Source: Struthio camelus (taxonomy: Eukaryota; Chordata; Aves; Struthioniformes; Struthionidae). From it: a stretch of DNA of 64,000 bases. Under the pieces are notes generated by a model, which had not been told where the DNA came from, did not search any database, and was given only the letters and a program-made list of their open reading frames with translations. Shown here in pieces: positions 6,701 through 60,300 of the stretch (position 1 is the first letter of the stretch; each line of letters opens with the position of its first letter). The DNA is taken from the NCBI RefSeq assembly GCF_040807025.1, contig NC_090943.1, positions 854,356-918,355 of the forward strand, written 5' to 3'. A program made the position numbers and the translations under genes.

Positions 6701-9700
6701 GATAATTTCCTCGAGTCCTGCGCCCCTGTCTGGCTGCCTCTTTCTTGGTCTGTGCAGCAGGGCCTGGCCTAGCAGGGTCCCAGGACGTAGCAGCAAGGCA
6801 CGTAATCCCTACAAAGAGGGGATCGCAGTCACCTTGAACTGTGCTGCCGCAGAGTTAAGAATTCTTGTACTGACTTTCCTGCTAGCAAATCCAACTTCTT
6901 TTCCCTTCCCTCCTGTGTCTCTTTTGCGTGTAAATACTGCTTAAACTAGAGCACGGAGCAGTGCTGGAGCGGTGATGTGTGTTCCCTGTTCTCCCGGTTG
7001 GCCGCGCATCAGGTTGTGACACCTAACAGTGCTGAGCTGAGTATTTGCTTTCAGGTCCTGGCAGCACTCGAGGACAATACTGTGCTCCCCCCGGAGGAGT
7101 GGGGAAGCCTGGAGGACCGGCAGAAGGAGTGGTGCAGGAACGTGCTGAGGGGCAGCTGCGAGTCCCTGATCTCGCTAGGTAATAGCTGGGGTGAAGCGTC
7201 GCTCCGTGAGGCTCGGGGTGAGCTCTGTACGTGCTCTCGGCGTAGCCGCAGCGAGCACAGCTCGATCCCCTCCGCCCGCCACGAGGTCGCGGTGGTGAGC
7301 GCGACCCTCTGCCCCACGTGCAGAGCCCTCTCCGGGCTGGCTTGGACCTTAGTGTGACACGGGGAGGGGTCTGTGCAGCACTTCACGTCCCGTGCAGGGG
7401 AAGGGGCTTGCTGTACGGTGCGTGAGGCGTCCCAAAGGAAAGTGGCAGGTGACAGCGGTTGCTGCTGTCCGTCCCCACAGGAGCGGGACATGCTGCCACG
7501 TCACCCGGCCACTCCTGGTCCCAGAGGCTGCCAGAAGCACTGTGGCGGTGGTTGCGTCTGCCCGCCGGACCTGTTACCTCTCCCCACAAAGCCTGTTGGT
7601 AACGCCACGGACCGTCGCCACTGCGAACGCAATTACGACTTTATTTTGCTGCCTTCCAGGGAGGTGCAGCGCAGGCCTTGTTGGCCGATTGCTCCGTAGC
7701 CGTTCACTCCAATGAGGGACTCTAAGCTGTGCCTCTGCCTTCAGTCATCCCCTGTCGTATCCTCTCCCATAAGCAGACTATGCCATTTCCAAGCCTGATG
7801 TTCTGTCTCGGCTCGAGCGAGAAGAGCCATGTCCAAGGGAGCGACCGGGCCAGGAGGGGAGCGAGAGCTCTGCGGACCCCAGCGCAGGTGAGGGCTGCCT
7901 GAGCTTCGTACGGCTGGACCTGAGCTGTCGTGTCAGCGCGTCCTGCATGCTCTGGAGCCGCCTCTGTGGGTTTATGCAATAACTTCTCAAAGGCATGAGG
8001 ATTATAGGAGCAAATAAGCAGGGATGCACAGCGTGGTGTAGGAGCTGCGCAAACACGCCTGGGGTATGGTCCATCTTTGGCCTACGCTCGTTTGGACCTG
8101 GCATGCACGGGGGGAGCAGGGGGAACAAGAGGATTTTGGCTGGACTAAATCCAGCCAGACCTTTTTGCAGCTGGGACGTGCATCGGAGACTCTGGGTCAG
8201 TTAGACGGGTGTGCTGCTGTGCTGCAGAGGAGAAAAGTCCTGTTCTCTGATGGTCAGTGATTTCCTAGGGAACTTAGCTTAATTTTCATCTCCTGTAACA
8301 GAGCCTCTGAGCTGCAGCCTGGAAGTCTCTCTGCAGATCAAACAGGAGGAAGAGCAGGTCAAGGAGGACCAGCAGGATGTGGAAGAAAAAGGAGACGCTC
8401 AGGAGACGCCAGCAGGTGGGTGATGAGCCCAGGTGGCCCTGAACACCGCAGAGGAGCTCGAAAGCAGGAGGGCAAGGAAGGCTCTGTATTGCTACCGCAC
8501 CGTCAGCTCTGGCGAGCGAGATCCCACAGCCTCCATCGCTGTTCCCTGTCGGACCGGGGCCGTGACCGGCGGCTCTGCGTTCCCGCAGGGCAGCTCCTCG
8601 CTGGGGCAGGGCTCTCGGACCGGCTGCAGCGCTGGCTGGAGGGGACGGACAGGAACCAGGTCACCTCTTAGCAGTCAGGGCCAGCTGTGAACAGAGCTAA
8701 GCTGAGCGGGGTCTCCCAGTGCTGCCCAGAAGAGAGGGGCGCGCAACCCTGCACAGCTGCTCTTCTCCCCCACTCTCCCACGCTCGCGGCTGTGCCGTCG
8801 CTGCTCCCGCTGCCTCTCCGGCTGGGGCGCCCTGCGCAGCCCTCTGCAGCCCCGCTGCTGCGCTCGGCGCCGGCCCTGTGGCTGGGCAACGCAGCCGCCC
8901 TGCGCTCCTCCTCCCCGGGACCCCCGTGCAGAGGCCAGGGCCCCTTCACGCCTAGGCCCCTGGTTTCCGTGATTTTGCAAGTTCCTCTCTAAGGTGTCTG
9001 TGATGCCTCGGGGCTGTGACACCGCCCAGGCCGTGCCGCAGCAGCGTGTGACATGCTGGCGGCCGTCCCTGCCCGGTCCCAGGAGCAGTGCTGCGGTCTG
9101 ATGTCAGCCTCTCTGTTCCAGCGGCAGCCTGGCTGCCCGGCTGCGAGAGGGAGCAGGGCACGGAGCAGGACGTGCCTGGGCCGGAGCCCCCCCGGCCTGT
9201 GGCAAGAAGGCTGGACGGCGGCGTTTATGCAGGCCAAGCAGGTGAGACACAGCAGAGCCGGGACGCGGCACAAACGGGCCTGGCCCCGCAGCGACCTGCC
9301 CTGCCCGAGGGAGGCGCCGGCGCAGCGAGACCGTTCCCGTGCTCGGCCTGCGGCAGGAGCTTCAGCTGCCACGAGCTCTTCGCCCAGCACCGGTGCGCGC
9401 AACCGGGGCAGCACCCGGCCCAGCGCGGGCAGCGCCCCGAGGGCCCGGCGCCGCCGGCCAGCCTGGCCAAGCACGCCCGCCCACGCGCCGCCGGGCCCCG
9501 GGCCTACGTGTGCACAGACTGCGGCAAGAGCTTCATCCACCAGTCCACGCTCACCACCCACTACCGCACGCACACGGGCGAGAAGCCCTACCCCTGCGGC
9601 ACCTGCCCCAAGCGCTTCGGGCGGCTCTCCACGCTGCTGGAGCACCAGCGCACGCACACGGGCGAGAAGCCCTACGCCTGCGGGGAGTGCCAGAAGCGCT

Positions 9701-40290: not shown

Positions 40291-40359
40291 CACAGCTCCA
40301 GCTCCGAGGGGGCCCTCTCCCTTCCTGGTTCTGATGGGACCCCGCTCCCCTCTCCCTTC

Positions 40360-40650
40360 TCCCCTCCTACCCCAGAGGACCCCCCCTTCCTTCTCCCCTC
40401 TTCCCCCAGAAGACCCCCTCCCCTCTCCTCTCTCCTGCTAGAGGACCCCCTCCCCTCTCCCTCCTCCCCCCAGAAGACCCCCTCCCCCTCCCCTTTCCTG
40501 CCAGAGGACCCCCCTCCCTTCTCCTCTCCCCTCTCCCCCTAAAACCCCCCTCCCCCTCCCTTCTCCCCTCTCCCCCCAGAGCACCCCCCTCCCCTCTCTC
40601 CCCTCTCCCAGGGGACCCCCCTCCCCTCCCGCCCCGCTCCCGCCCGCGGC
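40360..40650. repeat. Polypyrimidine (C/T) tract near the gene E promoter
   Basis: Almost unbroken C and T over about 250 nt, with recurring CCCCCTCCCCTCTCC and AGAGGACCCCCC blocks, ending about 90 nt before the gene E ATG. Such tracts can adopt triplex or i-motif structures and can act as promoter elements. Confidence 0.7.
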
Positions 40651-40733
40651 TCCGGGCCCCGCCGGCGGGGGGCGGCGGGGGGCGGCAGGGGGCGCTGCGG
40701 GCCGGCCCGGGGGCGGCGGCGGCGGCGGCGGCC
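40651..40733 (+). promoter_or_regulatory. Core promoter / 5' UTR of gene E
   Basis: Extremely GC-rich with GC boxes and repeated GGCGGGGGGCGGC, running into GGCGGCGGCGGCGGCC directly before the ATG at 40734. No TATA or CCAAT box. The start site cannot be placed. Confidence 0.45.
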
Positions 40734-41288
40734 ATGGCCGGGGCGGGGGTGGCGGCGCGGCTGCGGCGGCTGGAGGCGCGGCTGGCGCGGGCGGAGCGGC
40801 GGCTGCGGGTCGCGCTGGCTCTGCGCGGCCGCCTCGAGGCGCTGGAGCGGCGGCTGGAGCCGGGCGGGCCCGGGCCCCGGCCCGAGGCCGCGGCGATGGG
40901 CGCGCGGAGCCCGCTGCGGCCGGAGGACGTCTGGGTGCACTTCAGCGCGCGCGAGTGGCGGGCGCTGCGCGGCTGGCAGCGGGCCCTGCACCGCGCCGTC
41001 ATGCGCAGCAACTGCGACCTGCTGCTCTCCCTGGCCGGGGCCGCGCCCGAGCCCCGACCCGCCGGCCCCCGCCTCGACCCCGGCCTCGACCCCCGCCCCG
41101 AGCCCGAGCCCGGCCGCAGCCGCCGCCGCAGCGCCGGTGAGTGCCGCGGGCCGTCGGATCGTGCCCCAGCCCCTGCCCGTGCCCCTGCCCGTGCCCCTGC
41201 CCGTGCCCCTGCCCGTGCCCCTGCCCGTGCCCCTGCCCGTGCCCCGGCCCCGGCCCCTGCCCGTGCCCCGGCCCCGGCCCCGGCCCCG

Positions 41289-41326
<38 letters not shown>

Positions 41327-44300
41327 CCCGGCCCCGGCCCCGGCCCCGGCCCCGGCCCCGGCCCCTGCTCCTGCCCCGGCCCCGGCCCCGGCCCCTGCTC
41401 CTGCCCCTGCCCCGGCCCCTGCTCCTGCCCCTGCCCCTGCCCCTGCTCCTGCCCCTGCTCCTGCCCCGGCCCCTGCCCCTGCTCCTGCCCCGGCCCCTGC
41501 TCCTGCCCCGGCCCCTGCTCCTGCCCCGGCCCCGGCCCCTGCTCCTGCCCCGGCCCCGGCCCCTGCTCCTGCCCCGGCCCCGGCCCCTGCTCCTGCCCCG
41601 GCCCCGGCCCCGGCCCCAGCTCCTGCCCCGGCCCCAGCTCCTGCCCCGGCCCCTGCTCCTGCCCCGGCCCCTGCTCCTGCCCCGGCCCCTGCTCCTGCCC
41701 CGGCCCCGGCCCCTGCTCCTGCCCCGGCCCCTGCCCCGGCCCCAGCTCCGGCCCCGGCCCCGGCCCCGGCCCCGGCCCCTGCTCCTGCCCCGGCCCCGGC
41801 CCCGGCCCCTGCTCCTGCCCCGGCCCCAGCTCCGGCCCCAGCTCCGGCCCCAGCTCCGGCCCCGGCCCCGGCCCCGGCCCCTGCCCCGGCCCCGGCCCCG
41901 GCCCCGGCCCCTGCCCCGGCCCCAGCTCCGGCCCCGGCCCCGGCCCCTGCCCCGGCCCCAGCTCCTGCCCCGGCCCCGGCCCCGGCCCCAGCTCCTGCCC
42001 CTGCCCCTCTCTTCCAGCCTCACCCGTGGCTCTCACTTGCTCTTCGAAGCCTTGGCGGCTCAACGTCTCGCTTTTCCCTTCAGCTGGTGGCCGCACTGCC
42101 GACCGTGGCACGTGCCCGGCCTCGCGGTCAGGTGCTGTCCGCCCTGCCGGCCCCAGCGCGGTGGTTCCCCGCCAGCCCAGTGTCAAGGCCGGCTGTTCGA
42201 AACAGCTCTGCTCCGTTTGCGCGAGCCTGCGCCGTGTCACTGCTTTCATGCGTGCAGAAAGTTTTGCTCTGGTTCATTGCTCGTGCTACGCGGGCGTAAA
42301 GGCAGAGTGATCTGCAGGGTCTCAGCCCTGCTTCAACATCTGCTCAGGATTTGACTACAAACATACGTAGCTCTGTTTGAGAGGTCTCGGTCAGCAAGAA
42401 CTGGCACTGAAGCGAGGTTTTCCCTGTTACGTGAGCCAGAACAGCGCTGCTGTGCCTGACATGGGATGAGGTTTGGAACCACCTCTGCCTATGGAATTAA
42501 AATAGCATTTGTCCCTACAAACAGAACATCCAGTTTATGCAGAAGACAGCTTAATGGACATTAAGCAAGAGGAGGAGTTGTGCGCTGCAGGTCTGGAGGA
42601 GGTGGAGGCTAGAGAAGGTCCTGAAGAGCCCTGCCTAGGTGAGTAGCTGCCTGCCTCGGAGGGGAGACAAAGGGATTATGTTCCAAGTGGTTCACCTCTC
42701 CTCATGTATTCCACATTTTTTATAAAACCTCACAAGTTTTAAACAGACTTGCCACCGATAAGTGGCTGGTATTTCATCTTTGCCTTCTCACAGCCATTTT
42801 TGAGTTTGTGGAATATGTGGCTGCTTTTCTTTTAAGCAGCCCAGTGTGGGGTAGGAAACGTTTCATTCCCCCTTAAACTCCTTACTTTGCATCCCTCGAG
42901 TTGACAGCTGTAAGCTGGTCAGATACCTAGTGCAAAGGGGGCCGTTACTCACTTCTTGGGGCCAACAGGTTAATTTGGAGGAGGAAAAATCAGTGACAGA
43001 ATGAGGTATGTGGTTGGTGCAGTCCACTGCACCAGTCTCTCTTGGGAGAAGCAGCACTGCGTGTGCATATTCTGGCTGCAGAGGAACTGGACCGGCCGTG
43101 GCAGGTCCTTTGCTCCTCTGCTCCACGTTCCCTGTGGTCTTCTGATGGATTTGGCAAGGTTACAGTGCCTGTTCTCCTGCATATCCAGCATTTTCAGGCT
43201 GCCTTCCTCCTTCACCTTTCCTCCATGGTTTTTCTGACATGGATGAGTGTCCTGACATCCGGGTAGTGCTGTTCCTATAACAGATAGTAGCTGGTGAGAC
43301 TGCTCAGCCCAGAGACTTGTTTCTTGCCTTCTCATTCTGGTGGTGCCTCCTTGCGTCTCAAAAACCTGTGCTGCTTCGGAGCTCGACTGTCCTCGCTCTG
43401 TACAAAGGGTAGCAGCTCTAACTGCTGGCTCCGTGTTGGCTGATTTTCCTTGGCCTCTAGTGCGTAATGTAATCTGGGATTTTTAGACCTTTCCATCAGG
43501 TTTCATTAAGAAGCTGGGTTTATCGGAGCTTGTGTAAAATAGAGGGCTGGCACGCAGACAAGGGGGCAGCATGCCTCACAGCTGTGAAACTTTGACCGTA
43601 AGCACTTCTGATACGCTTGTCATGAATTTTCTCCTCCAGCAGAGCAAGCATTTTATGAGCCTGACGCTTCAACTCGGACCAAGAGAGGCAAAGAGGTTCG
43701 TGTCAGAGAGCTGCCAGATGCCGAGGGCGAGGACCTCCCTGGAGACCCTTACGCAGGTGAGGATTCCATGGAAGATCTCCCGCTGTAGGAATTCTCTCTC
43801 AGGCAGCTCTCAGTGGCTGTGCCTTCCCCGAGGCTTTGTCAGCACTTTTCTTATCCTTGTGAATCTCCAAATCTTCCATGCTTTGCATCTTTCTCCTGTG
43901 TCTCTCTGTTGTATAAATTCTTCCCAATGAACAGGGTTTCAGGCTTGTGCAACTGATGTTTTATCTTGGATTAAACAAGAGGAGGAGCCATACCTCCATG
44001 AACGACAAGACTTGGAGAAAGAAGAAATCTCTACAGATCCCAGTACAGGTCAGTAATGGATTTGAGCTGAGATTTCCAGGGACAGTAGATCTTTAGAGCA
44101 TTTCTCATATAATATTAAACACCACGGCCATACAATGTAAGCCATTAACGAACTGGTACAAACCTCAGTCTACTAGCTTTTATTTGTTCACAGAATTTTC
44201 AGGTTCTGTCAGCTGAAGAGTCACCTTCTTCCCTCAGGTGGCCTAAGACCGTTATAAACATAGTCTTGGCTTTCTGTTTAGGAAGCTCAGCTGTGTGCTC

Positions 44301-48819: not shown

Positions 48820-50020
48820 CACAGAATTGCAGAACGGTTGAGGTTGGCAGGGACCTCTGGAGATCATCTAGTCTGACCTCCCTGCTCCAGTAGCGTCCTC
48901 TAGAGCACATTGCCCAGGACCGCGTCCAGGCGGGTTTTGAAGATCTCCAGCGAAGGAGACTCCACCACCTCTCTGGGCAACCTGGGCCAGGGCTCGGTCA
49001 CCCTCACAGTAAAGAAAATTTTCCTCATGTTCAGACAGAACTGCCTGTGCTTCAGTTTGTGCCCGTTGCCTCTCGTCCTGTCGCTGGGCACCACGGAGAA
49101 GAGACTGGCCTCATCCTCTCGACACCCCCCCTTCAGATACTTGTACACATTGATGAGATCTCCCCCTCGGTCTTCTCTTCTCCAGGCTGAACAGGCCCAG
49201 CTCTCGCAGCCTTTCCTTGTATGAGAGATGCTCCAGTCCCTTTATCACTTCCCTCCACCTGCTGGCAACACTCTGCCTCATGCACCCCAGGATCCCATTG
49301 GCCTTCTTGGCCCCAAGGACACACTGCTGGCTCATGGTCAACTTGTTGTCCACCAGCACTCCCAGGTCCTTCTCTGCAGAGTTCCTTTCCAGCAGGTCAA
49401 CCCCCAGCCTGTCCTGCTGCCTGGGGTTCTTCCTCCCCAGGGGCAGGACCCTGCCCTTGCCTTGGTTGAACTTCATGAGGTTCCCCTCCGCCCAACTCTC
49501 CAGCCTGTCCAGGTCCCTCTGAATGGCAGCACAGCCCTCTGGTGTGTCAGCCACTCCTCCCAGATTTGGATCAACATAAACTTATTGAGGGTGCACTCTG
49601 TCCTTTCATCCAGGTCATTGATGAATACATCGAACAAGACTGGACCCAGGACTGACCCCTGGGGGACACCACTAGCCACAGGTCTCCAACTAGATGCCAC
49701 ACCACTGACTACAACCCTCTGAGCTTGACCATCCAGCCAGTTCTCAAGCCACCTCACTGTCCAGTCATCTAACCTACGCTTCCTGAGTTTACCTACGAGG
49801 ATGTGATGGGAGACAGTGTCCAAAGCCTTGCTGTAGTCCAGGGAGACAACAGCCACTGCTCTCCCCTCCTCTACCCAGCCAGTCATTCCACCAGAGAAGG
49901 CTCTCAGGTTGGTCAAGCACGATTTCTCCTTGGTGAATCCATGCTGACTACCCTTGATCACCTTCTTGCCCTTCCTGTGCTTGGAAAGGGCCTCCAGGAT
50001 GAGCAGCTCCATCATTTTCC
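48820..50020 (-). mobile_element. 5'-truncated CR1 LINE with reverse-transcriptase remnant
   Basis: The longest mobile element in the window, about 1.2 kb. Read on the minus strand it runs from the middle of the reverse-transcriptase domain through the 3' UTR to the GATGATCTCCAGAGGTCCCT-type tail near 48870. Its 5' truncation falls about 100 nt from the gene F promoter island. It is moderately diverged and not intact. Confidence 0.9.
49111..50015 (-). pseudogene. CR1 reverse-transcriptase C-terminal fragment, frameshifted
   Basis: Two overlapping minus-strand frames carry the retrotransposon RT: 50015-49473 with [17 protein letters not shown] and [20 protein letters not shown], then 49554-49111 with [20 protein letters not shown]. 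The break falls at the catalytic F-A-D-D box, which is destroyed by a 1-bp length change, so the enzyme is dead. The N-terminal endonuclease and fingers are missing through 5' truncation. Confidence 0.88.
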
Positions 50021-50369
50021 AGGCAAAGGCAAAAAGATGAGGAAGGCTGAAGCAAGAGGAGATATTCTGGGTCTTCTGTCCCCCACGTCCCTATTTTAGC
50101 GGCAAGTCACTGCTCTGGAAAACGTGTGTAAACAACCAACAGCGGGAAACGGCTGGTTTCTCCCGGCTGCGGGGCGGAACCGGTCCCCTGCGTAGGGCCG
50201 GGGCCGCAGTCGGTGCTTCCCCGGGGAGTCGAGGAGGGCTGGGCGTCGCCTTCCGCCGCCGGGCTGCCTCCGGGGCGGCCCCGGTCCCGCCTCGGCCCGG
50301 AGCGGGCCGCGGCCCTGCTGCGCCGTTGCCATGACAACGGGAGGGCCCAGCCTCGCTCCTCCCTCTCCG

Positions 50370-50652
50370 CGACGTCACGGCCGCCTCCTCCAATGAAAGC
50401 CCTTGGCTTGCCGGCCAATGGGAGTGAGCGTGCCCGCCCCTCCCGCGCTCGTCGGGGCCGCGCCGCACGGCGCCGACATCGATTGGTTCCCGCGCCGGCC
50501 GCGCCCACCAATGGGAAGGCGAGGCGGGAAGGGGTGAGAGGCGGCTGGCCAATGGCGAAGGGAAGTGGGGGCGGCGCTCGGCACGCGCGGCGGGCGTCTC
50601 GCCTGATTGGCAGCCGGGGCGGCGCGGCGCGGCGGGGTGGGGCGGCGCGGAG
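50370..50652 (+). promoter_or_regulatory. Gene F promoter with six CCAAT boxes, a CRE and a first-exon donor
   Basis: CpG island with CCAAT at 50390, 50415, 50508 and 50549 and the inverse ATTGG at 50482 and 50606, all within 221 bp; several share CCAATGGGA or CCAATGG. A CRE-like GACGTCAC lies at 50371. A strong donor GGAG-GTAAGA at 50652/50653 marks the end of a probable untranslated first exon. CCAAT boxes are bound by NF-Y. No TATA box and no minisatellite follow, unlike the other genes. Confidence 0.65.
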
Positions 50653-51798
50653 GTAAGATGGCGGGCGGGGACGGGTTGGGCTCCGCGGTGCCGCCCGGGC
50701 CCGGCCCTGCGCGGCGGGGGAAGGCGCCGGGGCGGGAGGCCTGGGGAGCGGCCCGTGTCCTCCCCGGCGCAGCTGCCTGCTGCTCTCCGCCTCGGGAGGC
50801 GCGGCGGCGGCGGGGGGGGGTGTCGTCATCCCCGCGGCCTCCCTGCCCTCGGCCGCGCAAGGGGCGGCGAGGCTCCGCAGCAGCGGTGCGAGGGGCCCGA
50901 TGTCCTCCCGCGTCCGGCCCCGGGCGGGGTTGTGAAGCGTGACTGCGCGCCCAGGCCCGGTGAGGGTGGGGGAGCGTTGGCTGGAGTCAGGTCTGGGCTG
51001 TGGTTCAGTGCAGCAGCGCTCCCGGCCTGCGCCGGGCGGCCCGTTCGCTTCCTGGGCTCCCCTGGCTCGCGCACGCCCTGATAATTCCTTTTTTTTTTTT
51101 TTTATTTAAAGCAGTGAATATTTGTGGTTCCCTCCCCTCTGTGCCTGTGCAGAGACCTCCTCCTCCTCCTCCCTGGTTGTTATCCCAAGTACCGTTTCCC
51201 CTGGCGCTCGCCTTCTCCAATGTGCAGCTGTTATGAGGGGGAAGTCTTCATTTCAGTTCTGCACGTGTAAACCCAAGCTTTAGCACTTTGGAAAGTATTT
51301 GGCTATCACCCTTCTGCTGCTGCCTTCTGAGTAACTGCGTATTAAGCTTTGTGAGGGAGTGTGTTAGGATTCCTCACGGATACACTAGTTGATGAAGTGC
51401 ATGTATGTTTATGTATCTATTTGCATACATAGTAGAAGTTGCTTTAAACATAACTTTGTGTAGTAGTGGTCCGTTAAGCTGATTTAAAAGATTTTTTTCC
51501 CTTTCAGATCATATACAGTTACTCAGTTGGGGAAGCCATATGCTGTTGGTTGGTGTGAGGAAAAAGCAGCCTGACTTTTTATCTCTGCGTGTCACAGATG
51601 CCAGCTACGGTGAGGTCCACGTCTCTTTCAGTGAAGTTCAGCACCACGTTTCACGGCTGCGTGAACTCGGCTCTTTCTGTCAGTCACATGTTTTTTCTTG
51701 AGTTGTTTAGGTCTATTAAAGCAATAGTTGATTAAAAAGTCTTGAAACCCTCCTCCTGGCACATTATTTTTGGATTTGTTCTTATTTCTCACTTTACA

Positions 51799-52266
51799 AT
51801 GGTTTATTGCTCAGCCCTGAACTGTCAAAATGCTACCAGTGGGGTGTATAAAAACAGTACGGTTACTTTCTATGGTTTTCCTTTGCAAAATAAACCTCTC
51901 TTGAAGCAGTGGATTCATAACATGGGTCGTGACATGGGAACACCTTCTAAACATCAGCGACTCTGTTCTAAGCATTTTGAGGACACTTCTTTTGAAATTG
52001 ACCCCTTAAAAATTAGAAAAAACAGACGCCTCCTGAAAGAAGCTGTTCCCAAAAAATTCATTCTGGGTGAAGACGGAAACTGGCTTGTTGGAACGCCTCG
52101 AAGTTTCTGTGGTGGAATAAGTAATAAAACTCGAAAACGAATCCGGAATCCCGAACACTTGAAGGTAACTAAGATATTTGCCACTGTATTTACTTCTGTG
52201 AAATTAAAGGAGGATAATAAGTGCGTATCTGCACGTAAAGCTCTTCAAGGAAGCAGCGACACATGA
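51799..52266 (+). CDS. Alternative THAP-only product of gene F, 155 aa
   Basis: If the donor at 52165 is not used, the frame runs 33 codons past the THAP exon and stops at 52264-52266, 17 nt before an AATAAA. This gives a THAP domain with a basic tail and no KRAB or fingers. It rests on reading frame and signal only. Confidence 0.4.
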   Translation: MVYCSALNCQNATSGVYKNSTVTFYGFPLQNKPLLKQWIHNMGRDMGTPSKHQRLCSKHFEDTSFEIDPLKIRKNRRLLKEAVPKKFILGEDGNWLVGTPRSFCGGISNKTRKRIRNPEHLKVTKIFATVFTSVKLKEDNKCVSARKALQGSSDT

Positions 52267-55200
52267 AACATGCTATTTGACACAATAAAAATGATGCTGG
52301 TGATATGACTGGTTTCATTTCTCTTTGTGGTCAAATTCCAATGTTGTGTGTAAATGTTTGTTGGGGAAAAAAGCATGATATTTATTGGAAATCCAGTCCC
52401 ACTTTGTGCTGTAAAATGGATTCTCTTCCTGCAAACCTGTACTTGTACTCAGTAGTTCTTATGCTTACAAAAACGTCCTTTAGACTCACTGAGATGGTGG
52501 CATAGTGCCTGCAGGGTGGGTGCTTGGGGCTGTGAGACAAATCCTTGGTTTCTGCTCAAGCTTCTTTCCCGACTGTTCAGTTTGGATTGTGATCCAAACT
52601 TGTGACAAGTTTATAACACTTAACTTGCCAAATGGTTTCTGCTGGCATCAGGTTTGTGCAGCTGGGTATGCTGTGCACGCTGCAAAACTTCTGAACCAGC
52701 GAGACGTGTATCTGGCCGAAAAGCAAAGTAAAAGTTATTCACAGGCAAGCATGTAGAAACACTCAACAAAATATGAATATAAAATACTAACAATACGTAT
52801 GCATATACAGCAGGTAATATATAAAGGTAATAGCATGTAAAGGCAAAGTATAAATTCATTCTCAGTGTCACTGTACAGCTAGTGGGTTTGGGAAGAGCAG
52901 TATAGATTGAGCAAGTATTAATTCAGCTCGGCAGGTTGCTACTTAAACTTTAGGAGTAAAATGCTGTCGAAAATACACTGTTGAAGCTAAACAAAGCATG
53001 TCATGTCTAGGCAGTGAAGGAGCAGATAAAAGAAGTTTGTAGTGACAGTAACTGCTTTCAGCACTGTTCATCTCCAAAAAAAAGAAAAATCTAGATTAAA
53101 GTTGAAAGAAATTCGGGAGAAATTACAGCATATACTTTTAACATTCCTCCTTCAATCAACGTTTGCAAAAATAGAGTATTCATCTCTCAGTATTTGTAAG
53201 ATTTACTTTTTCCTTTGTTTATCTTAACCTTTAAGTTTTATTATTAGGGGAAAAACTCGACAGCCAGATCTGACAGACAGTGGACCTGCCTCAGGACTTA
53301 AGATATTTAAACTACAATCTTGAGTGTTTTCTTTTCTCAGTGTATAGAAGAGTCGATTTCTTTGACGTGGGTGTCCATGATGACCATAGTTTTTCTTCCC
53401 CACCAATTTTTGACTCAGTTATTTTAGAGTCATTGTTTCAGTTGAGTTGTCAGATCTTTTAAATAGTTATACTCATTCTTAAGTGCACACAGAAATAACA
53501 GTAAAGATTCTTATTTAGATCCTTAAGTAGTATCCTGGATATACAGTAACATGGGCGCTGCTAGAAACAGTTGGCTGATGATAGCACGTTTGATACTGTT
53601 TGAAAAAGAGGGCTTTCAAAGACGGGCTACTTGCAAATGGCATTAAGCGTTGAACACTTTTTGTTTTAGGTCCCTGGGACATTTGATACTGTTGCAGCAC
53701 ATGAGGGGAAGAACTTAGAAGACTGGCCAACAGAACTTTACAAGAAAGTGATAAAGGAGAATTATGAATCTTTAACCTCATTGGGTAAAGGTTAGTTTTC
53801 CCTTTCTCATTGGAGGCTGAGATGTGCGCTGTTTCTGGGCTGGCTCGCGTCTAACAGTCCTCAAATGGTTTGATTTCTAGTGGATTAGTGCTTAGATGCT
53901 TCTGGATCTTTGTGAAAGAAGATAAGTTCCACCCAGCTTTTTTCCTGTAAGACTGAAGGACAGTCACTTCTCTAATGCCTCCGTATCTGCTGCTTTCTCT
54001 CTGCGCTCTCGCTGTTTAGTCTGTGTGCATAGGTGATACCTTGCCTGCGTGATATGGATAAAGTAAGAGGGAGTGAAAGCGTCTCCCCTGGGAAAGGGAT
54101 TTAGGTCATTATCTCTGATGGTGCCACCGGTAAAACGAGAAACAAATGGAAGAGATTTAGATACACGAGCTAATGAGCTGGTCAGAGAGCTTCTCGTGTG
54201 TTTCGATTCACTTACGAATTTAGAAAAGTATCTGTTCTAATTGAAATTTTTGTCTGGAAATATCACGAGCAGTTTGCAATGAAATACAGTATCATGAATC
54301 CTAAAATCCTGATGTACACGCAGTGTTTGCGGTTCACTAAAGATTATTGAACTATTTTGGTGCAGAAATGATTAAATCAACGTGGACGATGTTCCAAAAA
54401 ATTAGGTCTCGTTATTAGTTGTAAGTGTCTAACTACACATTTGTTTTAAGTCATTGTTTTTTAAATATGAAGGTGTGAAGCCCTTCCGGCTCCTCAGTTT
54501 TCAGCTGATGGCTTGGATTAATAGAAGGAAGAACCTGCTCTCGTTATAGGCTAAAAGTGCATTTACTTGTCCTCCAGGCTAGAGGAAGAGAGCTGCTGGG
54601 AACTCCAGCAGCCTCAGTTGTTTACTCCTGCTTATGCTTTGTGACCCTCTTCAGTTCTGTTTGAGAAATGCTGATTTAGCCTGGCCTCATTCTGTTGCTA
54701 CTTCTGTAGTTTCAAGTATGAAATTACTTTGAAGCTTTAGAGGAACAATGAGGAAATCTAAATCTTGTTTTTACAAATTTTTTACATACCTTCCATTTTC
54801 TACAGTAGAAGAACTGGATTCTGCTGACAGCAGCGTCTAATTTTTGTACCACTCTGATCTTAAAAAAAAAAAAAAAAGAAAAAAAAGAAAAGAAAAAAAT
54901 ATATGTTATGTATATGAGTTACTTAGGGGAAAACAAGTTGTATATCGGAAAGACAGTTAGGGCCGAATCATTGCATACGCGCACCAGATAGCTGATATGG
55001 TTATAGTCAATTCAAGCTCTTCTATTTTTGAACACTTAGCTTTTCAACCTTTTGGATATAATTTCTGAAATATAAAAAAAATTGGAAGATAGATACTGCC
55101 CTGCACCCTGCTTCCTGACCCCCTTCTTAGATGCCAGAGCAGCTGCCGCAATAGTTTACTGTTATCTCCTCATTGGCTCTTTGCCTGGAGGGCGAGAGAG

Positions 55201-57368
55201 GGGGTATGTAGACAGTGAGTTACACAGGTATTTGCTGGAGCACAGCAGCACAAAGTGTTTGCTGGCAGTTCTAGGCCCCAAGATGTTGCCTGGTGCTTAG
55301 ACTTTTCCTTCCTTGTACTGCCAATTTCAGATTGTCTCTTTCTGCTCTTGCTCCATCCCAGTCGTTCTCTAGAGACCCTCTGCAACTCTTGCATCTTCCC
55401 TGTCTGCTCTTGTTCTCCTCTTCCACCTCAGCTGTGCTCGCTGCCAGGTGCCACGCTTGCCCCCAGCTGCCCCTTCTCTGCACCCTTTTCATTCTTTCCA
55501 CTTCCAGCGTCTTTCCTTTTATGCATGTAAGTCAGGCAACTTCCTTCTCCTCCGCACTGCTCTGCCCGTCAGGCAGCAGCAGGACCCCGGAGGGCACAGG
55601 AAGACCCTCCCGATTCCAGTGCAGTTGCTGTTGCCCCGGCAGGCGGAGGAGGAGGCAGGGAAAGTCCCGTTGCAGACCCGTAGCTCTGGGTTGCCTACGC
55701 TCAACCCTGTGGGCATCATGTCAGCACCCGCGCTGTCAGGGTATGGAGGTTGTTCAGCACAGAGGGAATTATCAGATAATTTCCTGCTGAAAAATATTAC
55801 AAGAATCTGCTAGGTCTGTAAAAATGGAAACTTTTGGATGTTTATAATTGGGGCAGACTTTCACTTGTTCACAGCACGCAGAAAACTGCATAGCCCACGC
55901 TGGTGCCCCCCCGAACAGCAAGTCCTTGCTTCACAGCATTAACAGGATAGAGCCTCTCTGTGAAAAGGGTGCAGGAACTTCTTAATATGTCAGAGCAATA
56001 CATTACTTGTCTGATCTTACGCGGGGACTGACCAAAGTGTTTTAACTAAGTTTATAACAGAATTCTGAATGGATATTTCATCTCAGATTGGTTATAGGGT
56101 AAATATTGCTAAGTCACTGAAAACAGTGTCTAGGCAACCTTAAATATAATTATTGGATGTCTGTTCAATCCACACTGAAGAGTGATGAAGAGAGGAAAAG
56201 GCTGTTTCTGGTTGCTCGGCTTGAAAGCTCTTTCAGTTAGGCTTATTTGGGAAAGAAAAAGGCAATATTTTTCATGTATATTAATGAAAATGAGTCATGC
56301 TGACAAAAAAGGGCAAAAGTAAACTATATGCCTCAGAAACTGAAAGTGAACTGCCTGATGAAAAGCCTTCTTCAGCACCTCTCTGTGCAACTTTGCCTAC
56401 AATCCTTTGCGTCCGTCAAGACAATTAAAGTAGGCCAGGCGACACTTTTGTAATCAAAAAAAAAAAGAGGAAAATAATAACCATAATTTCCATTGTACGT
56501 GCCTTATGCAGACCATCCGCTTCCCCGAAATGATACCCAGTCACGAGAAGCACTGCATGTCGAGGATCAGCAAGATATTGAGGAAAGATACATTTCTGCA
56601 AGTCTTAGCACAGGTGTGTGATGGCCTGAAACCAGTCAAAAATTAAAGTTGCAATACACTGAAATGGCACAGGCTTGTAGGATTTAGATGGTGGGTGAAT
56701 TATAGCACATTCTTACTTTTTTATCCAAAACTTACTTTATTTGTATAGCTGTAGTCACAATGAATCAGGAATTTTTATTCTTTGGAGATTTTTGTCAGCT
56801 CAAGTCAGATAAAGGGACTGTTTGGAATCTTTTCGTTCCAGGTTCTGGTGAGACTGTGATCAAATCTGAGATGCAGAGTCATGCACAGAGTTCAGAGAAT
56901 ACAGAGCTGCATGGATCATTTTCAGGAGGATCGCAAGACCTGACTTGCCAAATTTCTGACAAGGAGGTAACTTTTGAGAGTTGTCAGAATTCAGAAGCAG
57001 ATCAGGCAATGGGAAGGAGAACAGGTAACGGCTCTCTTGGTGACGGAGAATCTAACAAATTCAGAGAGATCCTTTTTTACCAGGAAACCCACACAGGAGA
57101 AAGAATTTATCTGTGTACAGAATGTAAGAAAACTTTTAAACTGAAAATAGGACTTCTAAAACATAAGCAAATTCACACCAAAAAGAGTCAGATACCATCA
57201 TACATATGTACAGACTGTGGTAAAAGCTTTGGTCGCCATGCAGATCTGATTAGACACCAAAGAACTCACACAGGAGAGAGGCCTTATAAATGTACCGAAT
57301 GTGAAAAAAGTTTTACAGAAAAACCAAGACTTACGAATCACTTGCGAACGCATAACATACACATGTAA
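51799..57368 (+). CDS. Gene F: THAP-KRAB-like-C2H2 zinc-finger protein, 369 aa
   Basis: Coding exons: 51799-52164, 53670-53784, 56512-56613, 56842-57368; 1110 nt, open, all GT-AG. The exon holding the ATG probably begins at 51711; the ATG has A at -3 and G at +4. Exon 1 encodes a complete THAP domain (1-87): C4, C9, C56, H59 in C-x4-C-x46-C-x2-H spacing, with P28, W38, F60 and an AVPKKF box. It ends in phase 0, joining a KRAB-A-like exon (123-160) that keeps ELYKKVIKENYESLTSL but lacks FSEQEW. The phase-1 linker exon and VIKSE motif match the paralogues. Three TGER(P)-type fingers lie at 284-306, 315-337 and 343-365. Expected role: nuclear DNA binding through two unrelated zinc modules. The alternative is two transcripts that share the locus. 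Confidence 0.75.
52284..52289 (+). terminator. Intronic AATAAA in gene F
   Basis: The canonical hexamer lies 120 nt into the first intron after the THAP exon, just after the read-through stop codon. It would allow a THAP-only mRNA. Confidence 0.5.
54806..54840 (+). other. Possible alternative terminal exon of gene F
   Basis: A good acceptor (TTTTCTACAG) opens a phase-1 frame reading VEELDSADSSV then a stop. It sits between the KRAB-like and linker exons and would truncate the protein before the fingers. A decayed linker exon is equally likely. Confidence 0.2.
54857..54901. repeat. A-rich tract in gene F intron
   Basis: A run of As interrupted by single Gs, ending in AAATATA. It could be a simple repeat or the tail of an old retroinsertion; no element body is recognisable. 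Confidence 0.6.
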
Positions 57369-60300
57369 TCTGTGTGCCAGAAGTGTTCTTGGGATAGATT
57401 TTCCATTCATTTATGAAAAACTCAACCCGGTGATGATGGCTTATAGTCCTATATAGATTATAGGGGAAGCTTTAAGATGAGAGCAGTTTTATTAAAGTGA
57501 ATGAAATTCAAGCATGAAATGCATCTGGTTGGTGCCAGCCTAATAAGCATTGATTAGTAGCAGATTTTAATTAATGGCCAGATGATTCATATCTGGGAGG
57601 GGGTGGTGTATAGAGCTGTGACTGTACCAAAGGCATGTTTAAAAAAAAAAAAAAAATCTGAAGCACCAAACAGCTTATGCTGGAGAATGCCTGTATTAAC
57701 GCAGAAAAATGCTGGAAGCTTTTCAGATACAAGACGACTGTGAAAGATCAGCACAAAATATTTAGATTAGAAGAGGATCGTCCACAGAGTTATAAGCAGG
57801 AAATGGAGCTTCTAAGAGCTTAGATTAAGGTGTAAGAATAGCAAAAAATGTTAGTTCCGCAGTTGCCGTCGTTGGACAGTAGTGGTGGCACTGAAAGCAC
57901 AACTGCATGGAAATCAGAATCAGACAGGTGCTTCCAACATCTCACAGTGGGTGAGATGCCAGTTTCAGAACTGAGATTCTGGAGAAGAGTAAGGGCATAT
58001 TCTTAATGTATGTGCAAAGTATATGCAAAATGACTGTTCTCTGTAAACTAAAGAAACAAGCAATAGCTTCATATGCAGAGGCAAGATTAACGGACAGAAG
58101 GAAGGGAGTCCTGTGAGGACAGTGTTGATAGAACCTGTATCTTCTCTCTGCAGGATGGAGAACATCTTCAGTATTTTTGCTTATTCCAATTGAGTGCAAA
58201 GATTGAAAAACTAGTGTAACTTCCCAGTTCAAAGCACCTGTTTTGCAGTGAGCCCTTGAATTAAGTTGGTGTTCTCAGCTTCCCATGAGAAATAGTAGGC
58301 GCAAGAAACAACTGGTACCGTAATGGATTTTGATTAATTCTGAAGGTAACTATGTAACATGGTTGTCCACACTAGGATGGGACTGAACTTGGCCGCAAGG
58401 GATCCCTGCCAGTCCTAAATATGGCTATAGCTTACAGAAAAGTATTTCCTCACTGGCTTCTCATTATTTTCTTCTCACAAATTACATTGGGGACAGCTTT
58501 TCTTTCATTGTTCTCCCGCATAATTGAATGTCTCAGTAACCCCAAGCAGAACCTCAGTGAAAGGCCTCATGTTGGAAACTCTGCCTCCTTCTGCGCTGCT
58601 GTTCTGCAAGTGCAGAGCTAAGGAGCGGCCATCCAGGGAAAGACTAGGCAGAGATCGCCACTTAAAAATGAGATTTTTTTAACGCTCCGAAATGCAAATA
58701 TTAATGCTTGTTTAGCGGGTTAAACAGAGACAGATTAAATGGAGTTAGAGATGCAAAGCCACACAGCAGTGGGGCTGTTCAAAATAAGGATTGTGTGTAC
58801 TATCTTGCTTGTTCAAAATTCTGAGCGGATCTTAGCATTAGCAGTGGACATAGTGAGAATGGACAACTAGAGGAACTGTGACTTCTGCAAAGAATATTCT
58901 GGTTTTGTTTGAACAGTAAAAGTTCAGATTTGTAGGGAAATCCAGAGTCAGATCAACTCTATGTTGAAATGACTTGTTTGCATCTGAAGAAATGAGTGTC
59001 TGAAGTACCTGGAACTGAGAGAATCTGTATCTGTGATTTTGTGAAAATTTTATTTTCCATTACCTATGAGCAGAAGGGCTTTGATTTGGCGAGAAAACTA
59101 TACCTAACATCCATTCTCCCTGACCTGAGACTCCGAGCGCGTACAATAGGAGGAATGTGTCACTTAGAGTTGTCTTCTAAGGGGCTTGGTGAAGTGCCTT
59201 CTACTTGTGACATAAAAAATGCAGAGATTTTGATGGATTTAAAATGAAAGGGAAAATGAAAGAATCTGTCAAGCCTTTCAGCTTTAAAGATAAGTTTTAT
59301 TGGCTTTGTTTCTAACAAATACAAACCCTCCTTCCGTTTTGTTGATGCTTGTAGGAATTTTGCCATAATTGAGAATATGCTTAGTCCCTTAATGATTAAA
59401 CAAGTAGTTTGCGTGCTCTAGTAATCATTCTCTCAACATACTACTGTTATATAATATAAACTCCAAAAACAGTTATTTCTGAAGCTATATTTAAACATTG
59501 TGGTTTCAGGTTCCATGAAAAATCACACTGAAACTTAAAACGTAGTAAAGATTTATGGCCAGTGCTAAGGGACATGAAACACTGTTGTTAATACACAGTG
59601 GTTACTTGGATAGGCCATTTCTGTTCCTTCTGTATCCCAAAAGCAATTCAGTGTAGAGCAAATTACCCTGTTTTCAAGAACGTGTTTACCTATGTAGTGT
59701 ATGATGGCCTCTGGTAGGTGCACTTGTGTTGGTCAGTGCACCTCGTCAGGTGTATGAAGCAACAGTGTCCCATCTGTTACCACAGCTAAATATTCCGCAC
59801 AGTAAATGTGCTTCTGAAATTAATAAAAGGAATATAGCATATGCTTAGCATGAGAAAGCCCAGCAACGTATACCATTGTCCTAGTCCAAAATGCAGACTA
59901 AAGTAGTATAGAAAAGCTTGATTGAAGTATGCTAAAAATACAGTAATTCTTTAGTATCTGGTAGAAGTACTTGGGAGGTTAAGATGGGAAACAAGTCGGA
60001 GGGATGTACAAACTAGCCATTTCTTGCCTGAGTCTTCGTACAGAAACACATGTGCAGGAAACATGAGATTCTCTGAATTCCTCTCTCGGAGCTTTTGTTT
60101 CAATTCTCTTCAGTCATGGAGTTTGACTTGCTAGAGGATACATTCTATTCTGATCCTTGTAGCAGAGAAAGCAGGAAATCTAAGTGGAAATCAGTATATT
60201 TGCCTTTAGAAATAATGTTCATGCATCAAGGAAATACAAGCTACTGCATAAACTGTTGTGTTTGTGCAGTCCCAGAAAAAAAGTGAGATCTTTAGCGAGT

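Follow-up and report, generated by a model that had tools for sequence, protein, structure and literature searches.

Gene F, a four-exon gene of the window (C2:854356-918355, the whole 64-kb stretch analysed here), is one member of a tandem KRAB-zinc-finger array. We give a probability of about 0.7 to the reading that it is a DUF3669-KRAB-C2H2 cluster member in which the DUF3669 exon was replaced by a THAP exon, and that it would encode a bipartite DNA-binding factor. Joined together, the exons (Table 1) measure 366, 115, 102 and 527 nt and give 1110 nt, i.e. 369 amino acids and a stop, and the three coding junctions (phases 0, 1 and 1) are all in agreement. An earlier note on this DNA had announced that the four exons sum exactly to 370 codons and that a phase-0 KRAB-like exon is followed by a phase-1 linker exon and a three-finger exon, and we recovered this sum as well as the places and phases of the exons. 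The methionines of the model are at codons 1, 42 and 46, the next one being at codon 205, and the sole source of an in-frame ATG before that codon is the THAP exon. All donor scores given here come from a hand-entered weight table; with this table the donor of exon 3 scored 5.35, and that of exon 2 (TGG/GTAAAG) was weak (0.27). In the 64-kb window, neither Rfam at its gathering threshold nor a tRNA scan gave any match.

Table 1. Features of gene F and of its surroundings (positions in the window; a slash marks the exon end).
Feature	Position	Strand	Description
CpG island, likely promoter	50200..51099	.	GC 0.74-0.80, CpG observed/expected 0.92-0.99
Possible alternative start exon skipping THAP	51509..51609	+	ATG 51598, MPAT, donor ACG/GTGAGG, phase 0, acceptor TTTCAG
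Gene F exon 1	51799..52164	+	start codon, complete C2CH THAP, 122 codons, phase 0 end at AAG/GTAACT
AATAAA, possible end of a THAP-only transcript	52284..52289	+	starts 18 bases past read-through stop 52266
Gene F exon 2	53670..53784	+	shortened KRAB-A box, entered in phase 0 and left in phase 1
Gene F exon 3	56512..56613	+	probable diverged KRAB-B/linker (by place, phase and weak alignment), phase 1 at both ends
Gene F exon 4	56842..57368	+	VIKSE SUMO consensus, linker, three C2H2 fingers, stop
VIKSE, psi-K-x-E SUMO consensus	56856..56870	+	just past exon 4 acceptor, motif only
C2H2 finger 1	57114..57176	+	
C2H2 finger 2	57207..57269	+	
C2H2 finger 3	57291..57353	+	
ATTAAA, poly(A) signal candidate for the complete gene F transcript	57491..57496	+	motif only

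The earlier note had described exon 1 as carrying a full C2CH THAP signature, with C4, C9, C56, H59 and an AVPKKF box, and all these elements are present. Pfam THAP (PF05485) matched residues 4-86 of the gene F protein with 57 bits (cut-off 23.9), and the features by which THAP membership is recognised, namely the zinc ligands, W38 and the A82-F87 box, were all found. The exon was also said to end in phase 0 at a consensus donor, and this proved right; the donor at 52164 ranks first among the 123 GT sites from 51799 to about 53670 (same weight table). When the exon was compared to PDB chains by phmmer, THAP2 and THAP1 came out on top (E 7e-9 and 9e-9). The next best THAP exon of the genome (1.45 Gb searched, 262 contigs), located on C1, reached 53% over 63 residues, with differences at 29, 16 and 35 of 58 codon positions 1, 2 and 3. 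Relatives of exon 1 were confirmed in neither viral_contigs nor genome_contigs, as expected for a vertebrate gene.

Exon 2 scanned alone matched KRAB PF01352 with 23 bits (cut-off 20.4), over profile positions 15-41 of 42, and a genome search placed this KRAB at C2:908058 with 23.9 bits; within the whole protein the score was 19.2 bits, just below the cut-off, and in neither scan did the match go beyond positions 15-42. The KRAB-A box was aligned with eight of the ten other KRAB exons of the cluster, those of A and E being left out. It is shortened to 114 nt, vs 126 in the eight others, and in this sister alignment it presents a four-residue gap and has lost the EW tryptophan; the shortening by 12 bases preserves the frame. 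Exon 3 aligned weakly with six sister exons (tblastn against sisters, E 0.3-0.8). In the last exon, Pfam zf-C2H2 matched three stretches, and the closest relative of this exon was found in the same cluster, at C2:981364 (54% over query residues 80-172). As for the SUMO consensus, a similar motif, VIKTE, stands directly after an AG at four places (window 12939 on the minus strand, L052:3283, and L053:7 and 2466), which we take as belonging to three of the ten other cluster KRAB genes; the SUMO-motif scan did not find VIKTE at this post-AG place in the remaining ones.

With E values up to 1 allowed, a KRAB search of the genome gave 105 matches, 11 of them located at C2:847-977 kb. Six of these 11 cluster KRAB exons are inside the window, one for each of the genes A to F, and C2H2 fingers are present in all six genes. 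In at least 8 of the 11 cluster KRAB genes, a DUF3669-type exon precedes the KRAB exon by 0.1-1.5 kb on the same strand, and a genome search with the first exon of gene D gave at least eight matches, all those listed being at C2:847-974 kb; such counts of DUF3669-type exons are lower bounds. We take these sister first exons to be the DUF3669 exon of ZNF746/ZNF777, according to their place, their length and a human segment which we presume to be correct. Pfam DUF3669 (PF12417) had no match in the genome, nor did it match any of the sister exons scanned (four of the eight), so the label rests on this human sequence, exon place and length and not on a profile. PMC6923878 calls this Pfam model degenerate and gives its own definition of the domain, with 95 residues in amniotes.

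Gene F departs from these sisters at its first exon. A profile made from the eight sister exons found nothing better than E 26 in the gene F span, and, within the window, recovered A, B and D with E below 1e-43, by construction, these three being members of the eight. An independent tblastn query found A, B and D and no DUF3669-type domain in gene F. Genes C and E gave no credible DUF3669-type exon with the sister-exon profile either, thus the absence is not special to F. In gene F it is the THAP exon that stands upstream of the KRAB exon, at 1.5 kb, and the sister first exons end with AAG in phase 0 as the THAP exon does. The donor AAG/GTAAC is common to gene F and five of the eight sister first exons, the other three being different, and intron 1 of gene F showed no similarity to those of the sisters by blastn; a retention of the ancestral donor in gene F may be suggested by these motifs, but only suggested. 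Gene E (window 40335-42296, plus strand) departs from its sisters in another way, as its KRAB box lies within one long GC-rich open frame and is preceded by a coil-like stretch; the first-exon profile does not recognise it.

Between 47500 and 58599, exactly three of 37 bins of 300 bases passed the CpG criteria (per bin, GC >0.55 and observed/expected >0.6), all three in the island of Table 1, and these bins reveal no CpG island between the THAP and KRAB exons. A reverse transcriptase fragment (PF00078, 62.7 bits), probably a LINE remnant, lies just upstream of this island on the minus strand (window 49476-50090). The single THAP-KRAB-C2H2 gene proposed by the earlier note is the best reading of the locus, given this lone CpG island, a THAP exon that stands where the sisters have their first exons and ends in their phase, and the ATG that it brings. 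The repressor-like module which was part of that proposal is doubtful, since the KRAB-A box has its four-residue gap and no EW tryptophan and no DUF3669-type exon is recognisable.

The same promoter could nevertheless feed two products, a THAP-only protein of 155 residues and a THAP-less KRAB-finger protein spliced from 51609 to 53670, the fusion being rare or absent. The frame read through the THAP donor stops at 52266, close to the AATAAA of Table 1, and the phase-0 donor that follows 51609 has a score of 4.8, an ATG lying four codons before it. However, the intron itself has hexamers of the AATAAA or ATTAAA kind at a rate of about 0.08 per 40 bases, so the one at 52284 may be due to chance, and the THAP donor, the first of 123, is like that of five of the eight sister first exons. 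Positions -3 and +4 set the context in which a start codon is recognised; the MPAT start has C at both and is preceded by another ATG within its exon, whereas at the THAP start these positions are A and G, respectively. We therefore do not favour the THAP-skipping start exon, and we consider this division into two products unlikely.

Gene F could also be a dying or unexpressed copy of the cluster, whose open frames are a leftover. Its shortened KRAB-A, its weak exon 2 donor and its diverged exon 3 would fit such a decay; exon 3 presents no consistent excess at third positions (differences at 13, 12 and 12 of 29 codon positions 1, 2 and 3 with gene D; 13, 9 and 20 of 30 with the 969 kb gene). 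Exons 2 and 4 speak against it. The KRAB tree pairs F with G (929 kb), which has a DUF3669-type exon, with 89/75 support on 42 columns, a pairing that is not firm. Between the KRAB exons of F and G, 8, 6 and 22 of 38 codon positions 1, 2 and 3 differ, and for the fingers compared to C2:981364 the differences are 31, 23 and 74 of 91. This excess at third positions indicates coding constraint on both exons relative to the sisters, part of which the sister branch may supply. Moreover, the 369 codons are free of stops although the KRAB exons of F and G differ at 36 of 114 bases, the 12-base KRAB loss is in frame, and the THAP and the three fingers are intact. A neutral-change simulation, with substitutions only and assumed branch lengths, gave for the whole CDS a mean of 4.3 stops and a probability of no stop of 0.012 at 10% substitution, and of 0.0018 at 15%; when exon 1 was simulated by itself, this probability was 0.24 at 10%, which is not telling. 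Decay thus appears improbable to us. Even less probable is a THAP exon captured from a transposase, the domain still recognising the copies of its transposon in the manner of KRABINER. THAP is also the DNA-binding domain of the P-element transposase, of which PDB 6p5a and 3kde gave weak matches to the gene F THAP (E 0.007 and 0.015). Also, the gene F THAP is unsplit, with no intron at the FP site, unlike five of the seven other THAP matches of the genome, which start just after an AG at this site; such an unsplit domain would fit a retrocopy, a transposon or an intron loss alike. Against a capture, the 2.56 kb around the THAP exon matched one place in the genome, itself (very common words being skipped in the search), terminal repeats around it were none that is clear, and the best relatives of the domain are of host type, namely the C1 exon and the THAP2 and THAP1 structures.

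Under the preferred reading, a DUF3669 exon replaced by THAP, the cluster member would have lost a first coding exon which provided oligomerisation and weak repression. As the KRAB of F pairs, though not firmly, with that of the DUF3669-keeping G, a replacement after tandem duplication would be the simplest history. Transcription would begin at 50.2-51.1 kb, within the CpG island. The start codon would come from the THAP exon, which a phase-0 junction would link to the original KRAB-A, followed by the KRAB-B-derived linker and the finger exon, and the predicted transcript would yield a putative protein of 369 residues. THAP domains and C2H2 fingers are DNA-binding modules. A reader of two sites is thus the plain expectation from the domain content, the THAP presumably binding one short site and the three fingers another.

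In ZNF746a, a KRAB truncated by 15 residues had no reporter activity alone, most repression coming from DUF3669, which also oligomerised, whereas the full-length KRAB of ZNF746b gave a 3.1-fold repression; for human ZNF746 and ZNF777, much of the repression was placed in DUF3669 (PMC6923878, excerpt). Among variant-KRAB proteins, a KAP1 fold change above three was seen in one of 18 tested (PMC6745500, excerpt). With these reports in mind, the KRAB stump of gene F would be unlikely to recruit TRIM28, and the protein probably has no repression of the TRIM28 type. Any repression by it would pass through the VIKSE site, if SUMOylated, or through partners, and we infer that SUMO is the most likely remaining route. 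More tentatively, and with slightly less than even odds, a conserved vertebrate transcription factor may have arisen from a DUF3669 to THAP swap at the same phase-0 junction, which would have turned a repressor subunit into a two-site reader. Such a reader may bridge two motifs or compete with the DUF3669 sisters at shared finger sites.

The nearest known system is that of the DUF3669-KRAB-C2H2 genes (human ZNF212, ZNF282, ZNF398, ZNF746, ZNF777 and ZNF783). Gene F shares with them a non-canonical KRAB and a last exon with the fingers, and with its own sisters the cluster, the KRAB-A phases of those that have the DUF3669-type exon and, in some of them, a SUMO consensus placed early in the last exon. 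The phase pattern of this subfamily, with KRAB-A entered in phase 0 and left in phase 1 and then a phase-1-ended exon, was found in F, the KRAB-B likeness being weak. Gene F differs from them by a THAP instead of the DUF3669-type exon, a KRAB-A four residues shorter and its three fingers. Like THAP1, THAP2 and other members of the THAP family, it has a complete C2CH domain at the extreme N-terminus with an AVPxxF box, but its domain is unsplit at the FP site and has KRAB and C2H2 exons behind it. SCAN-KRAB-ZNF genes also present an additional N-terminal domain exon ahead of the KRAB and fingers (PMC6923878, PMC3257199, excerpts). Their SCAN is an oligomerisation domain, whereas the THAP of F is a DNA-binding one. 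KRABINER is reportedly a bat fusion with an N-terminal KRAB. This host-transposase fusion binds DNA and regulates genes (PMC12062965, excerpt). As in gene F, KRAB is linked there to a DNA-binding domain of transposase type; in F, however, the THAP is N-terminal, the gene has fingers of its own, and a transposon origin is a candidate only.

The earlier note knew of no described THAP-KRAB-C2H2 protein, and we did not find one in the open PMC full text that was searched, most results being seen at the level of the listing and subscription papers and protein databases being outside the scope of the search. Such a protein is not described in the available parts of PMC4859970, PMC10752586, PMC12062965, PMC10027918, PMC6923878, PMC6745500, PMC13228809, PMC1414109, PMC11476951 and PMC3257199. 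The domains scanned in a chicken census of C2H2 proteins were C2H2 and six others, a set that leaves out THAP (PMC11476951, excerpt), so genes of this kind could have escaped notice in genomes already annotated. The N-terminal SCAN and DUF3669 modules of KRAB zinc-finger genes are oligomerisation domains (PMC6923878, PMC6745500, excerpts). Thus an add-on domain at the N-terminus of such a gene is known, and a THAP at this place is new as far as we have seen; it would mean a DNA-binding module instead of an oligomerisation module and, if our reading is true, a regulator that reads DNA through two modules and retains just a remnant of its usual repressor module. As sisters which keep DUF3669 are in the same array, the effect of the swap is directly testable.

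Two further observations concern KRAB sequences outside gene F. In the cluster gene at 848 kb, the KRAB-B-type exon is doubled in tandem, with nearly identical flanks (L046:5817-5876 and 7146-7205). On C8, C9, C15, C22, C80, C180 and C192, many KRAB-like matches of about 21-26 bits lie in the same open frame of 70 or 79 residues, often 10-25 kb apart, suggesting a large near-identical tandem family.
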